Assembly (NCBI GenBank): GCA_947627425.1
Contig: CANQVZ010000002.1
Location: 1-64,000, forward strand
Source: an uncultured Clostridia bacterium
Lineage (GTDB): Bacteria > Bacillota > Clostridia > Lachnospirales > CAG-274
Direction: 5' to 3'
Length of the DNA: 64,000 nt
Shown in pieces: positions 9,058 to 14,489 of the stretch. A program made the position numbers and the translations under genes. The notes beneath the pieces were generated by a model. The model did not search any database. It was not told where the DNA came from and saw only the letters and a list, made by a program, of their open reading frames with translations. Each line of letters opens with the position of its first letter. Position 1 is the stretch's first letter.

Positions 9058-9738
9058 ATGAAAAAAACAGTTCTATTACTTATGTCTTTATTGCTTGTAT
9101 CGGCTTTAGTTGTTGGATGCGGCAAGACGGAAGGTACAGACGGAGAAAATACAAACGGCGTTAACAGAAATATAAGCTTTTCCACAAACGATCTTGCGAT
9201 ATATACAACGGAAGAAACTGATGGTATCATAATGCCGTCAAAATTCATAACAATGATTGGCGTTGATCCTTCTACCGTCGAACCCAGCGATGATGAAAAG
9301 CTTGAGCTTGTGAAGCAGTTTATTGAAACGGATGAAATGGAGATATCCGAAGGAGATATCGACAATCCCGGCGCAAAAAAAACAAGGAATGTTATAAGAT
9401 ATTTTAAGTATACAGGTAGCAGAGAGCCTATCATAAATTCAAAAAATATCACTACAACGGGTATGATGCCGGAGGATGACAATTGCAGCAGCGTTGATGA
9501 TGTAATAGAGGCGTACGGCATAGACAAAGAAAACGAGGAATATATCGAAAATAAGGATGAAAACGGCAGTTATGTTATAAAGCTCAATTTTAAGGACCTG
9601 GACACCAAAGAGGGTACGCTTGAAAGGATAATCACACCTAAGGGAAGTGAAGCCGAGGCATCCGAGGTGAGATATACTCTTCGCTTTACAATACAAAACG
9701 ACCATGTTCACGGAATAGACGCCTATATGTACTTCTGA
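9058..9738 (+). CDS. Lipoprotein of unknown function
   Basis: A 226-residue protein with a signal peptide and lipobox VVGC (Cys21). The mature part is acidic and shows no motif I recognise. ATG follows GGAGG closely after the CBS gene, and the next gene starts 12 bases after its stop, so it probably belongs to the same transcription unit. Confidence 0.75.
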   Translation: MKKTVLLLMSLLLVSALVVGCGKTEGTDGENTNGVNRNISFSTNDLAIYTTEETDGIIMPSKFITMIGVDPSTVEPSDDEKLELVKQFIETDEMEISEGDIDNPGAKKTRNVIRYFKYTGSREPIINSKNITTTGMMPEDDNCSSVDDVIEAYGIDKENEEYIENKDENGSYVIKLNFKDLDTKEGTLERIITPKGSEAEASEVRYTLRFTIQNDHVHGIDAYMYF

Positions 9739-9750
9739 TGGAGGTATATA

Positions 9751-11487
9751 ATGAATATACGCGAATATTTAAAGAGCCGTAAGCTCCTGTGTGACGGAGC
9801 CTTCGGCACATATTTCAATTCGATGGGCATGGATATGCTGCCCGAAAGAGCCAATACAGACGCGCCCGATAAGGTGTGCGCCATACATTGCGAATATATT
9901 AAAAACGGCGCTAGGCTGATAAGAACAAATACATTTGCCTCGTGCCGTAAGGTGCTTAACTGTACCGAGGATGAGCTTAAGACAAACCTGCTTTCAGCCT
10001 TTGAGTGTGCAAAAAAGGCAGCGGGAGAAGATGCCTTCGTTGCCTGTGATATAGGTCCCGACTGTTCGGAGGACTTTGTGTTCATAGCGGATACTTTTAT
10101 AGAGGCAGGCGCCGAAATAATACTTTTTGAGACCTTTGCCGATATAGAACCTATTATACCGGTGATAAAGCACATAAAGAGCATAAAAAGCGATGTATTC
10201 ATAATAGTGCAGTTCTGTGTCAATCAATACGGTTACACAGAAGACGGTATAAGTGCATCGGCTGTTATGAAAAGCTGCGGCGGTATTGCTGAAATAGATG
10301 CGGCAGGCTTCAACTGCGGCGTAGGTCCCGCTCATCTTCTGAACATACTTAAGGACACCGTTTTGCCGGAGGACAAGTTTATAACGGCATTGCCGAATGC
10401 AAGCTATCCTTCTGTGGTTCAGGACAGAACGGTATATCTTGACAATATAAATTATTTCTCCGATATTATGTCAAAGATATCCGACTATGTCGATATAGTG
10501 GGCGGCTGCTGCGGTACCAATCCAAAGCATATAAAGGCGCTCAATGAAAGGCTGGATTTTACGGCAGGGCATATGCATAGGAATGTAAATGCAAAAAAGC
10601 ATGATGCCGAGGGAGAACGCAATGACTACAGCCGCAGAGGCGCGTTTATAAACGGCGCAAAGGGCGGAAAGCTTATAGCCGTTGAACTGGATCCTCCCAA
10701 GAACGGAGATATATCCGCTCTCATGGAAACTGCAAATTACCTCAAGACCAAAAATGTGGACATAATCACATTTGCCGATTCTCCCAGTGGTAGGACAAGA
10801 GCGGATTCCGTGCTTATGAGCATAAAGGTAGCAAACGAAACGGGCATAAAGGTAATGCCTCACATATGCTGCCGTGATAAAAATGCCATAGCCATAGGTT
10901 CTCATGTATTGGGTGCTTACATAAACGGCATAAGAAATTTTCTTGTCATAACGGGCGATCCCGTGCCCAACACATCAAGAGATAATGTAAAGGGAGTTTT
11001 TAACTTTGACTCGGTAAGGCTTATGCGCTATCTCTCGGATATGAACGACGAAAGCTTTTCGGATGACAGATTATGCTACGGCGGCGCCATAAACTACGCA
11101 CGAGGTAACATTGACCTTGAGCTCGACAGAATAAGACGCAAAATAGAGGCGGGTGCGGAATTTTTCCTTACACAGCCCGTATATGACGACAAGGATATAT
11201 CTACGCTAAGATATATAAGAAAGAATATAAGCTGTCCCATGCTTGTGGGCATTATGCCTCTTGTAAGTCTTACAAACGCCAATTTTATTAAAAACGAGCT
11301 TACGGGCATAAATGTTCCGGATGATATCGTAAAAAGGTTTTCATCGGATATGTCTAAGGATGAGGCGCGTCTTGTGGGCATCAAAATAGCGGAGGAAACA
11401 ATGGCAAAGACTGATGATTTTGCAGATGGATTTTATTTTGTTATTCCGTTTAATAGACTTGCCATTGCCAAGGCGCTTATAAAATAA
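9751..11487 (+). CDS. Bifunctional homocysteine S-methyltransferase / methylenetetrahydrofolate reductase
   Basis: The N-terminal half (1 to ~285) is a homocysteine-binding barrel: LLCDGAFGTYF at the start, Cys in AGFNCGVGP and the paired Cys in VGGCCGTNPKHI supply the zinc/thiol site. The C-terminal half (from ~305) is an MTHFR barrel with VELDPPKNGD, ITFADSPSGRTRADS, MPHICCRDKN, LVITGDPVP and AEFFLTQPVYD. The order matches the YitJ-type fusion of Firmicutes, which makes 5-methyl-THF and may transfer a methyl group to homocysteine. Length 578 is normal. A separate cobalamin-type methionine synthase lies at 49234-51588, which may use the methyl-folate made here. SD GGAGGT is well placed. Confidence 0.92.
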   Translation: MNIREYLKSRKLLCDGAFGTYFNSMGMDMLPERANTDAPDKVCAIHCEYIKNGARLIRTNTFASCRKVLNCTEDELKTNLLSAFECAKKAAGEDAFVACDIGPDCSEDFVFIADTFIEAGAEIILFETFADIEPIIPVIKHIKSIKSDVFIIVQFCVNQYGYTEDGISASAVMKSCGGIAEIDAAGFNCGVGPAHLLNILKDTVLPEDKFITALPNASYPSVVQDRTVYLDNINYFSDIMSKISDYVDIVGGCCGTNPKHIKALNERLDFTAGHMHRNVNAKKHDAEGERNDYSRRGAFINGAKGGKLIAVELDPPKNGDISALMETANYLKTKNVDIITFADSPSGRTRADSVLMSIKVANETGIKVMPHICCRDKNAIAIGSHVLGAYINGIRNFLVITGDPVPNTSRDNVKGVFNFDSVRLMRYLSDMNDESFSDDRLCYGGAINYARGNIDLELDRIRRKIEAGAEFFLTQPVYDDKDISTLRYIRKNISCPMLVGIMPLVSLTNANFIKNELTGINVPDDIVKRFSSDMSKDEARLVGIKIAEETMAKTDDFADGFYFVIPFNRLAIAKALIK

Positions 11488-11505: not shown

Positions 11506-12225
11506 ATGATAAAGAAACTGAAGGTTGCAGATGTAAACATTGAAATAGAACTCAGATATGACAAGACTATAAAGCAGTCCGAAGCGTATGAAGCCGATTT
11601 TGAAAAATGCAATGTCAGCATAAAAATACCCGATGACAGCTTTGAGGAGCTTAAGGCTGAAACACCATATTTGAGCGTGGAGGATGTGGAATATGTATAT
11701 ACGGGCGCTGCCTTCTATGAGGCGCTTTTGCACTTCAACGGCTTTATGCTGCATTCCAGCGGAGTTGTTGTGGATGGCTATGCTTATCTGTTTTCCGCCG
11801 ATCCGGGTACGGGAAAATCCACTCATACTGACCTGTGGGTAAAATTTTTCGGCAGCGACAGAGCAAAGATAATAAATGACGACAAGCCCGCCATCAGGAT
11901 GATGGATGATGAAATTTATGTATACGGCACGCCGTGGAGCGGCAAAACAGACCAAAATCTCAATATGAGAGTTCCTTTGGGCGCCATAGTGTTTCTTGAG
12001 AGATCAGAGCATAATCACATAGAGAGGATAGAGCCAAAAGAGGCTATACCTCTTATACTCCAGCAGACCATTCGCCCGAGAGAACAGGATGTCATGATAA
12101 AGCTCTTGGATATGCTGGATAAGGTTTTAAGTAATATAAAGCTGTACAGGCTCGGCTGCGATATTTCGGAAGAAGCGGTCAGAGTCAGCTACAACGGAAT
12201 AAATATGGAGGGAAAAACATTATGA
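11506..12225 (+). CDS. HPr kinase/phosphorylase-like P-loop kinase
   Basis: A 239-residue protein with a P-loop, SADPGTGKSTHTDLW, near residue 98, and a downstream INDDKPAI acidic site like that of HprK. It lacks the HprK N-terminal domain and the HPr-recognition context. Relatives occur beside PqqD-like proteins in RiPP clusters (ScmC, lasso-peptide kinases), where some phosphorylate a precursor. Here its stop overlaps the PqqD-like start by four bases (ATGA), so translation is coupled. No HPr or PTS gene is nearby. Function is inferred; substrate unknown. Confidence 0.75.
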   Translation: MIKKLKVADVNIEIELRYDKTIKQSEAYEADFEKCNVSIKIPDDSFEELKAETPYLSVEDVEYVYTGAAFYEALLHFNGFMLHSSGVVVDGYAYLFSADPGTGKSTHTDLWVKFFGSDRAKIINDDKPAIRMMDDEIYVYGTPWSGKTDQNLNMRVPLGAIVFLERSEHNHIERIEPKEAIPLILQQTIRPREQDVMIKLLDMLDKVLSNIKLYRLGCDISEEAVRVSYNGINMEGKTL

Positions 12226-12488
12226 AGATCAAAGAAGGATATCTTTTAAGACAGGTTGCAGGCAGCAATATAGTAGTGCCCGTAGGCGAGGGTTCTATAG
12301 ATTTCAGTGGAGTTATAACGCTGAACGAAGTAGGGGCTTTTATATGGCAGATACTTGAAAAGGGAGCGGACAAGCAGGAAATACTTGACAAAATGCTTGC
12401 CGAATATGATGTCCCGAAGGAAACCGCAGAAAAGGACATTGACGAATATATCGAAAAGTTAAGAGGGGCTGAGCTTATTGCAGACTAA
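12222..12488 (+). CDS. PqqD-like peptide-recognition (RRE) protein
   Basis: PqqD-family proteins bind leader peptides and present them to modifying enzymes. This 88-residue protein has the typical pattern: an N-terminal beta part with NEVGAFIWQILEKG at ~45-58, then EILDKMLAEYDV and DIDEYIEKLRGAELI. It overlaps the kinase upstream by four bases and the peptidase downstream by eleven. No radical-SAM, cyclodehydratase or asparagine-synthase-like partner is present in the window, so its peptide partner is unknown. Confidence 0.8.
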   Translation: MKIKEGYLLRQVAGSNIVVPVGEGSIDFSGVITLNEVGAFIWQILEKGADKQEILDKMLAEYDVPKETAEKDIDEYIEKLRGAELIAD

Positions 12489-12936
12489 ATCGGTAAAGCT
12501 TGCCGAGATATACGGCGTTATGAAGGAAATGCTCGATAAGGGCGGTACCGTCAATTTTAATCCTAGAGGTACAAGTATGCTGCCTACGATACATAATGAC
12601 GGCGACAGGGTAACGCTCAAAAAGTTTGACAGGCTTAAAAAATACGAACTTCCGCTGTACATAAGAGATGACGGTCAGTTTGTGCTGCATAGGGTCATGT
12701 CTGTAAATTCCGACGGCACCTATAATATGTGCGGCGATAATCAATGGCACATAGAAAAGGGTGTTCGCCCCGAGCAGATAGTCGGAACGGTCATAAAAAT
12801 ACAGCGAGGCAAAAAAGAATTTTCCGTAAAAAATATTTTTTACAGGATATATGTATTCATATGGGTCAGCATTCGTCCGCTAAGACATATTTTTATAGGC
12901 GGCGGCAGAAAAATCAAAAGAATAATTTTTAAATGA
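12478..12936 (+). CDS. S26-family signal-peptidase-like protein
   Basis: A 152-residue protein. PRGTSMLPTI holds the putative nucleophile Ser of the SxMxPT box. A later FVLHRVMS segment puts a His where the eukaryotic/archaeal-type (Ser-His) S26 enzymes have theirs, rather than the Lys of bacterial LepB. A GDNQWH segment follows, as in S26. The hydrophobic segment is near the C-terminus (VKNIFYRIYVFIWVSI), not the N-terminus. TTG 12478 follows AGAGGGG and overlaps the pqqD-like gene; ATG at 12520 is the alternative start. It may cleave or escort the product of this gene set (inferred). Confidence 0.7.
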   Translation: MQTKSVKLAEIYGVMKEMLDKGGTVNFNPRGTSMLPTIHNDGDRVTLKKFDRLKKYELPLYIRDDGQFVLHRVMSVNSDGTYNMCGDNQWHIEKGVRPEQIVGTVIKIQRGKKEFSVKNIFYRIYVFIWVSIRPLRHIFIGGGRKIKRIIFK

Positions 12937-12956
12937 GTAAAATAGGAGGGTCATAT

Positions 12957-14489
12957 ATGAAAAAGCTTTTATTAACGGTAATTTTTGTGTTTTCACTTGC
13001 TTTTGTGGTATCGGCGGAAGAAGCCATAAGTCTGGATATAGACGGAAAGGCAATACAATGTGATACGCCTCCCCGTATAATAGACGGCAGGACTATGGTA
13101 CCCGTAAGAGCTATTTTTGAAGGCGTAGGCGCTGTTGTGGACTGGAACAGCGATACAAAGGAAATAACGGGTAAGCTAGGCTCTTTAAATGTAATAATGT
13201 CCATCGACAGCAATACGGCGCTCGTGAACGGCTCGCCCGTACAGATGGATTGTGCGCCCGTTATAATAGACGGCAGAACGCTTGCGCCTGCAAGGTATGT
13301 TGCGGAATCCTTTGGCTGTAAGGTAAACTGGGACAGCGAAAAAAGAGCAGTAAGCATTTCTACACCTCTTGCGGAGAAAAATTCACCAGCGGAGAGGCCA
13401 ATGGCAGAAAAGGTTACCGAAAATTCGACCGAGGCAACCACCGCAGCCGAAACCACAACTCATCCCATGTATGCATATAAAACCTACTATAAGCCAGGCA
13501 CATATGAAGTGGGCAAGGATATGCCCGCAGGAGAATATGTAGTGTTTGCAAATCCCGACAGCATAGGCTATCTCTATAAATATGCTAAGGACGGCACCAC
13601 AACGGCAAGGAGCGGAAAGCGCTATCTTTACAGCAATTATTTCTCTTATAATGATGTTATAACTCTTTCCGACAAAAATTATCTTGACCTTTCAAGCGCC
13701 TATGCCGTACCGTCTGAGGATGTAAGTTTACTTGATCTTAGCAAAAACGGCACCTTCAGGGCAGGTAAGGATATAAGCCTGGGACATATCACCTTCAAGA
13801 AAAGTCCCGAAACACCTATTGCCTATGTGGATGCGGGTTATATCAGCGATCCCGAAGCACAGAGAACTATATCATATCTTACAGAGGACAACGGCGACTC
13901 CGTGGTTGCTAATATAAGAGGCGGTATGCTCGTAAGGACCTTCGGCTGTGATATATACAATGCCAATCTTTCGCTTATAAAGACATATGAGCCTGTAAGC
14001 TCAAACAATAAGAATACGGACAAAAGCCTTAAATTGAGCGATGTATCCCCTAGCTTCAAAAATGAAGTGGATAGCTATCTGGCAACGCTGGTCAACGATA
14101 TGAAGCCCGGCAGCCTCAACTCTGAAAAATACAGTTCGTCTTATCAGAAGCAGATAAATGCAGGCTGGACTTCTAAGGCAGCAAACTCTGCGGAGAAAAA
14201 ATATGCGGCGCTGGCAAACAACTTCTACACTCATCTCAGAGACTGTGCTCAGAACACAAAAGGCAGCCTTGCATCTTCACCCGCTGTCAGAATAAGAGGA
14301 AAAAATATATCGAGCGCTCAGTTCAAAAATCTGCTCAATTCTCAGAAGGACTATTTTGTTTCGGCTGAAAAATATTTCGTAAATGGCAAGAGCTTTGAAG
14401 ACCTTGAGGTTGCTGTGTCCAGAATGTCACAGTATAGACATGATGTTCCGCGATTCACAGGTGACCCTGCGCGTGAGGAAGACCTATAA
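12957..14489 (+). CDS. Secreted copper-amine-oxidase N-domain protein
   Basis: A 510-residue exported protein with an N-terminal signal peptide ending near VVSAEE. Two tandem stalk-domain units follow: DGRTMVPVRAIFEGVGAVVDW and DGRTLAPARYVAESFGCKVNW. In Firmicutes these are extracellular scaffolds, not oxidases. Then comes a Thr-rich linker (TEATTAAETTT) and a beta-rich stretch opening with YKPGTYEVGKDMPAGEYVVF, and finally a helical C-terminal part. ATG 12957 has AGGAGGG eight bases upstream; the ATG at 12933 overlaps the previous stop and lacks an SD. It follows the kinase/PqqD/peptidase trio directly and ends at a terminator, so all four probably form one unit. Confidence 0.75.
   Translation: MKKLLLTVIFVFSLAFVVSAEEAISLDIDGKAIQCDTPPRIIDGRTMVPVRAIFEGVGAVVDWNSDTKEITGKLGSLNVIMSIDSNTALVNGSPVQMDCAPVIIDGRTLAPARYVAESFGCKVNWDSEKRAVSISTPLAEKNSPAERPMAEKVTENSTEATTAAETTTHPMYAYKTYYKPGTYEVGKDMPAGEYVVFANPDSIGYLYKYAKDGTTTARSGKRYLYSNYFSYNDVITLSDKNYLDLSSAYAVPSEDVSLLDLSKNGTFRAGKDISLGHITFKKSPETPIAYVDAGYISDPEAQRTISYLTEDNGDSVVANIRGGMLVRTFGCDIYNANLSLIKTYEPVSSNNKNTDKSLKLSDVSPSFKNEVDSYLATLVNDMKPGSLNSEKYSSSYQKQINAGWTSKAANSAEKKYAALANNFYTHLRDCAQNTKGSLASSPAVRIRGKNISSAQFKNLLNSQKDYFVSAEKYFVNGKSFEDLEVAVSRMSQYRHDVPRFTGDPAREEDL

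Follow-up and report, generated by a model that had tools for sequence, protein, structure and literature searches.

Linear polyphosphorylated peptides (LPP) have been described in Bacillota as the products of a pathway in which the kinase LppK phosphorylates Ser3 of the core repeatedly, the RRE protein LppB binds the YxxP leader, and LppS cuts after Thr-1, a step for which LppB is required (Popov et al., Nat Commun 2026, PMC13381572). In LppB, the residues N33, Y60, and D70 hold the leader Tyr and Pro, YxxP being the established ligand motif of such RREs; LppD and LppN are, respectively, the exporter and the NTP transferase of the pathway (PMC13381572). The published clusters contain their own one to three precursors, the exporter, and the NTP transferase, and are patchily distributed in Bacilli (PMC13381572). 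Two other systems show a partial likeness to the genes analysed here: the paeninodin-like phosphorylated lasso peptides (kinase, B1, B2, C, and NTP transferase), which are alike in the kinase, the PqqD-type B1, the NTP transferase, and the logic of a [Y/W]xxP leader, and SynChlorMet, whose ScmC and ScmD are HprK-related and PqqD-related proteins.

The kinase, adaptor, and peptidase genes

The window, i.e., the whole stretch of 64,000 nucleotides that was analysed, harbors three overlapping genes and a fourth one lying just behind them:

11506–12225, forward strand: LppK-like kinase (HprK/PEPCK fold), with the Walker A sequence GTGKST at residues 101–106 and NDDKP at residues 124–128
12222–12488, forward strand: LppB-like discrete RRE, predicted to be a PqqD-type leader-binding adaptor (PF05402, 68.7 bits)
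12478–12936, forward strand: LppS-like Ser-His peptidase of the S26 signal-peptidase fold, with a TTG start
12957–14489, forward strand: secreted stalk-domain protein (PF07833, 122 bits), a neighbour outside the system

The original prediction had described this overlapping trio with a stalk-domain gene downstream, and both coordinates and overlaps were reproduced from the open reading frames: kinase and adaptor overlap by the ATGA at 12222–12225, adaptor and peptidase by 11 bases at 12478–12488. As for the three protein assignments, that of the adaptor is upheld by PF05402, whose score exceeds the cut-off; the adaptor profile also matches the solved RRE structures TbiB1 (5v1u, E 7e-11), PbaB1 (9x90, E 7e-8), and LppB (9x8z, E 1e-6). 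Its residues N35, Y62, and D72, invariant in 18 sequences, correspond to N33, Y60, and D70 of LppB, so that the leader pocket of the LppB type is present. When the kinase and peptidase profiles were searched against the sequences of solved structures, nothing significant was obtained, and the two folds were therefore modelled and compared. The kinase has no Pfam match, and its best NCBIfam match, ScmC (TIGR04249), is weak (33 bits, with a cut-off of 125); nevertheless, its AlphaFold2 model (pLDDT 93) resembles HprK/P (1kkl, Foldseek E 7.8e-6) and PEPCK (VIA-align Z 13.5, rmsd 3.9, 218 aligned residues), which supports the HprK-like assignment. The residues of Walker A and NDDKP are invariant or nearly so overall, with G101, G103, K104, S105, T106, N124, D126, K127, and P128 invariant in the alignment A1 of 24 sequences. 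The peptidase is weakly recognized by sequence (Peptidase_S24, 14.8 bits, under the cut-off), but its model (pLDDT 83.5) has the signal-peptidase fold (VIA-align Z 10.3 with both SipA 4n31 and LepB 3s04, rmsd 2.0–2.5). Ser33 (GxSMxP), His71 (VLHR), Gly86, and Asp87 are invariant in 18 sequences; the catalytic Ser and His of an LPP-type peptidase are thus found as S33 and H71, in agreement with the predicted S26 peptidase, and D87 is probably the counterpart of LppS D93.

The arrangement of the trio is not due to chance, the kinase being present in 30 of the 48 genomes of the window's family and the order kinase-RRE-S26 recurring in six genera in the survey of related loci. In the genus g6 the order is instead GH105-like gene, S26, ABC exporter, kinase, RRE, and in 80 contigs carrying kinase relatives the RRE, S26, ABC exporter, and NTP_transf_5 genes are often located 3' of the kinase. 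The genes lying upstream of the trio, i.e., a fused homocysteine S-methyltransferase and methylenetetrahydrofolate reductase (window 9751–11487) and a short lipoprotein conserved along with it (9058–9738), were discarded as partners, since they are found beside the trio in two genera only. Clusters of kinase and RRE adjoin capsule-type genes (CpsB/CapC, Wzz-like, CpsD-like) at five loci (L070, L075, L080, L108, and L130); LPP clusters in Bacilli have likewise been reported near capsule-type genes (PMC13381572). Second kinase copies occur at L058 (G022:C102) and L060 (G020:C310), where they adjoin the gene for a large secreted protein as well as S26-exporter ORFs; the former locus also carries an NTP_transf_5 protein, and the kinase copy of the latter contains an in-frame TAA.

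The trio does have a known counterpart. It matches LppK-LppB-LppS, and by this analogy it very probably works as they do. The likeness comprises the HprK-like kinase, the discrete PqqD-type RRE, and the signal-peptidase-like Ser-His leader peptidase encoded by adjacent genes, together with an MsbA-type exporter, NTP_transf_5, a YxxP leader, the lack of an evident cyclase, and glycan loci near some components. The other routes fit less well. The lasso B2 protein (Transglut_core3) was not found above the cut-off in any of the 48 family genomes, and a lasso peptide pathway was rejected on this account; the two full-length Asn_synthase matches of the window's genome lie on other contigs and both start with MCG, as in ordinary AsnB. 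Routes based on YcaO and radical SAM enzymes were rejected as well, since YcaO was not found in the genome and the window's contig gave no match to radical SAM, so that the predicted absence of the latter is borne out there. SynChlorMet differs in the same missing radical SAM match and in its scores (ScmC 33 bits versus a cut-off of 125, ScmD 21 versus 100).

Candidate precursors and their distribution

In other Clostridia, relatives of the kinase gene adjoin genes for peptides of 31–54 amino acids with a YxxP leader, and the short ORFs at several of these loci share the N-terminus MKKxYxxPExEVxxFxxEDIIT. A regular expression yielded many chance matches and, in the family, no precursors close to the trio; hence, a profile (A4) was used, built from 15 of the peptides adjoining kinase relatives in other Clostridia, none of which came from the window's genome. 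The search of this genome with A4 returned 11 matches (best E 7.7e-5, eight below 0.01), all of them short ORFs of 43–52 residues, such as MKMYTKPEIQVVSCKTETIMLSGITSIQGDTTGATISEYTVNFN. In 10 of the 11 a GGAGG-type site precedes the ATG, the eleventh (C1:125165) being displayed from an earlier ATG, and a twelfth peptide, on contig C34, was matched with a wider profile. All of these peptides lie outside the window, within whose 64 kb no YxxP precursor was found. Hence, the claim that no precursor is present holds for the window and fails for the genome, and the alternative offered by the original prediction, that the substrate is encoded elsewhere, is the one that the search for small ORFs with a shared leader bears out. 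In 63 aligned peptides, Tyr0 and Pro3 are invariant, while 54 of them have Ser at Y+19 and 48 have Thr at Y+17 (consensus YxxPx[IM]x[IV]xxFxxEDIITxS[GA]). NCBIfam contains no model for these peptides. Short ORFs (e.g., PPLKGEARVGWESSASRRPFGGAGTRRVTEG) occurring in similar intergenic stretches at L155, L158, L161, and L163 look like a dispersed intergenic repeat.

The presence of the peptides was compared with that of the kinase across the 48 genomes of the family. With the wider profile A6, which included the peptides of the window's own genome, they were detected in 30/30 genomes with the kinase and in 2/18 without it (Fisher 7e-11; this and the following statistics count genomes, not independent gains or losses), the two being the incomplete assemblies G033 (70% complete) and G045 (71% complete). 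The number of A6 peptides per kinase-bearing genome ranges from 1 to 21, with several in nearly all. In the genus g6, kinase and peptides are jointly missing from two genomes whose sister genomes have both. Across the whole order (196 genomes, E ≤ 1e-3), peptides were found in 22 genomes, every one of which belongs to the window's family and carries the kinase; no match was obtained at this threshold in the 164 genomes lacking the kinase or in the ten kinase-bearing genomes of other families.

The genes for precursors, exporter, and NTP transferase are all unlinked to the trio, the latter two being found at other loci. An orthologue of the ABC exporter is present in 29/30 genomes with the kinase versus 1/18 without it (Fisher 7e-11), the lone exception at comparable strength being again G033. 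In g6 this exporter shares one cluster with S26, kinase, and RRE, and outside g6 the identity to the g6 copy is 49–57% (54% for the window genome's own MsbA-like, LppD-type copy, G000:C9:255-1874). In many relatives (L249–L259) of this exporter locus (L248), a GH105-like gene precedes the exporter, as it precedes the S26-ABC-kinase-RRE genes in g6, a pairing possibly linked to polysaccharide use. NTP_transf_5 was found in 19/30 genomes with the kinase and in 0/18 without it (p 7e-6), in many relatives among glycan-synthesis genes; in the window's genome it corresponds to the LppN-type (PF14907) protein G000:C51:488-1201 (136.6 bits). Since it is missing from 11/30 kinase-bearing genomes, it is either not essential or located in assembly gaps.

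Proposed mode of action and alternative explanations

On these grounds, the trio most likely serves an LPP-type RiPP system as a maturation unit that is shared by, and acts in trans on, YxxP precursors encoded elsewhere in the genome. The PqqD-type RRE would grip, judging from its analogy with LppB, the YxxP leader of short precursors from at least 12 other loci; the HprK-like kinase would phosphorylate the peptide, most likely at the conserved Ser Y+19 within [ED][DN]IITxS[GA], and the S26-type peptidase would then take off the leader near the same motif. The phosphorylation at Ser Y+19 and the nearby cleavage are suggested because the RRE matches LppB and because Tyr0, Pro3, Thr Y+17, and Ser Y+19 are conserved. 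Thr Y+17 and Ser Y+19 are compatible, in sequence terms, with the polyphosphorylated core Ser of LPP and the cut after Thr-1; the cut might fall either after the Thr or after the next small residue. The unlinked LppD-like exporter (G000:C9:255-1874) would export the product, NTP_transf_5 proteins (G000:C51:488-1201) may add a sugar to the phosphate, and the product might have a role at the cell surface. The helper roles originally ascribed to the trio (phosphorylation, leader binding, and leader removal) thus gain support, as putative roles, from the at least 12 YxxP peptides. In prochlorosin-type systems a single set of enzymes likewise processes, in trans, many precursors whose genes are scattered across the genome, as proposed here; their enzymes (lanthionine synthetase) and leaders are unrelated to those of the trio system.

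The original prediction had also envisaged that the trio modifies a protein, perhaps the exported stalk-domain protein of the adjacent gene. This gene does lie immediately downstream, in the same orientation and 20 bases past the peptidase gene; however, outside the window it lies 3' of the trio in only five surveyed loci, i.e., in part of the window's genus (L032–L035) and in one other genome (L049), whereas other genes sit downstream of the trio elsewhere among the surveyed relatives. Since this neighbour is not conserved, its role as substrate is unsupported; moreover, the protein starts with a signal peptide that lacks a YxxP motif, and the strong co-distribution of the peptides speaks against it, so that this explanation appears extremely unlikely. 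It might also be supposed that the trio is the remnant of a formerly clustered LPP or lasso pathway retained for a housekeeping use only, and the unlinked position of precursors, exporter, and NTP transferase would agree with such an origin. Catalytic residues and gene order are, however, maintained over several genera, nearly all kinase-bearing genomes encode several peptides, and lasso B2 above the cut-off is found in 0/48 genomes, making a mere remnant highly improbable.

A different objection concerns the correlation itself, which would arise by common descent if the YxxP peptides were small proteins sharing a clade with the trio without being its substrates. Presences and absences do mostly follow genera, but the joint absence of kinase and peptides from the two g6 genomes whose sister genomes have both, the fact that such peptides are encoded right next to the kinase gene in other Clostridia, and the conservation of the groove residues in an RRE of a type for which YxxP is the established ligand motif (PMC13381572) render this explanation very unlikely. 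The maturation of dispersed YxxP precursors by the trio is thus the preferred reading.

This system differs in several respects from the published LPP clusters. Here, no other component accompanies kinase, RRE, and peptidase: exporter and NTP transferase are encoded at other places, and at least 12 precursors are dispersed, nearly all of them behind another gene. YxxP is kept, whereas the remainder of the leader is different from the LPP consensus YxxPxVLxHQxIxFETxxS; the conserved Ser is at Y+18 in LPP versus Y+19 here, with two residues after the Thr in LPP versus one here. Since a linked precursor is absent and the leader consensus differs, the trio is best called a dispersed LPP variant. 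The novelty lies in the layout: the maturation operon stands by itself, the exporter is unlinked, and the precursors are dispersed, almost all of them behind another gene, usually one for a secreted protein; a literature search on a dispersed LPP layout found nothing.

Tandem placement of the peptides

According to the ORF tables of the window's genome, 10 of the 11 peptides matched by A4 sit −4 to +22 nt behind a gene on the same strand, the eleventh (L161) being located 12 nt before the gene for a 963-residue secreted GH88 protein. By the signal-peptide rule described below, a signal peptide is present in nine of the ten upstream partners, all nine with the gene start in view; the tenth (L155) has BspA-type repeats and its gene runs off the stretch, leaving the N-terminus outside it. 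When all 63 distinct peptides are considered, an ORF on the same strand ends −4 to +56 nt before the peptide in 61 cases, the distance being ≤33 nt in 60 of these; the two remaining peptides are situated close to the end of the available DNA (within ~330 nt). The start is visible for 25 of the 61 upstream genes and outside the fetched DNA for the remaining 36. The signal-peptide rule, a home-made hydrophobicity test on any early Met, was passed by 21 of these 25, against a background of 132/434 genes (30%) of ≥150 residues in neighbouring loci (binomial p 4.5e-8); the four failures include L161, where the secreted protein is encoded 3' of the peptide. By these counts, nearly every peptide stands in tandem with another gene, and in the cases open to judgement the partner is usually secreted. 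One partner, of 2073 residues (L157:1697-7918), contains M60 peptidase, fn3, and F5/8C domains.

The similarity of the peptide cores tracks that of the partner C-termini (r 0.81, with a permutation maximum of 0.22), a correlation which is explained by inheritance of the gene pair without physical contact. It is a tentative and rather doubtful idea that every mature phosphopeptide acts together with the protein, usually a secreted one, whose gene immediately precedes its own.

Dispersed precursors of this kind escape RiPP searches that cover nothing but the surroundings of the enzymes, and the dozen precursors per maturation unit represents a large natural substrate set for kinase, RRE, and peptidase. 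As far as the function of LPP is concerned, the partner proteins offer a concrete place to look. If the partnership were real, for instance with the peptide as a phosphate- or glycan-linked surface partner, one kinase-RRE-peptidase unit and one exporter would equip many extracellular proteins with dedicated modified peptides.
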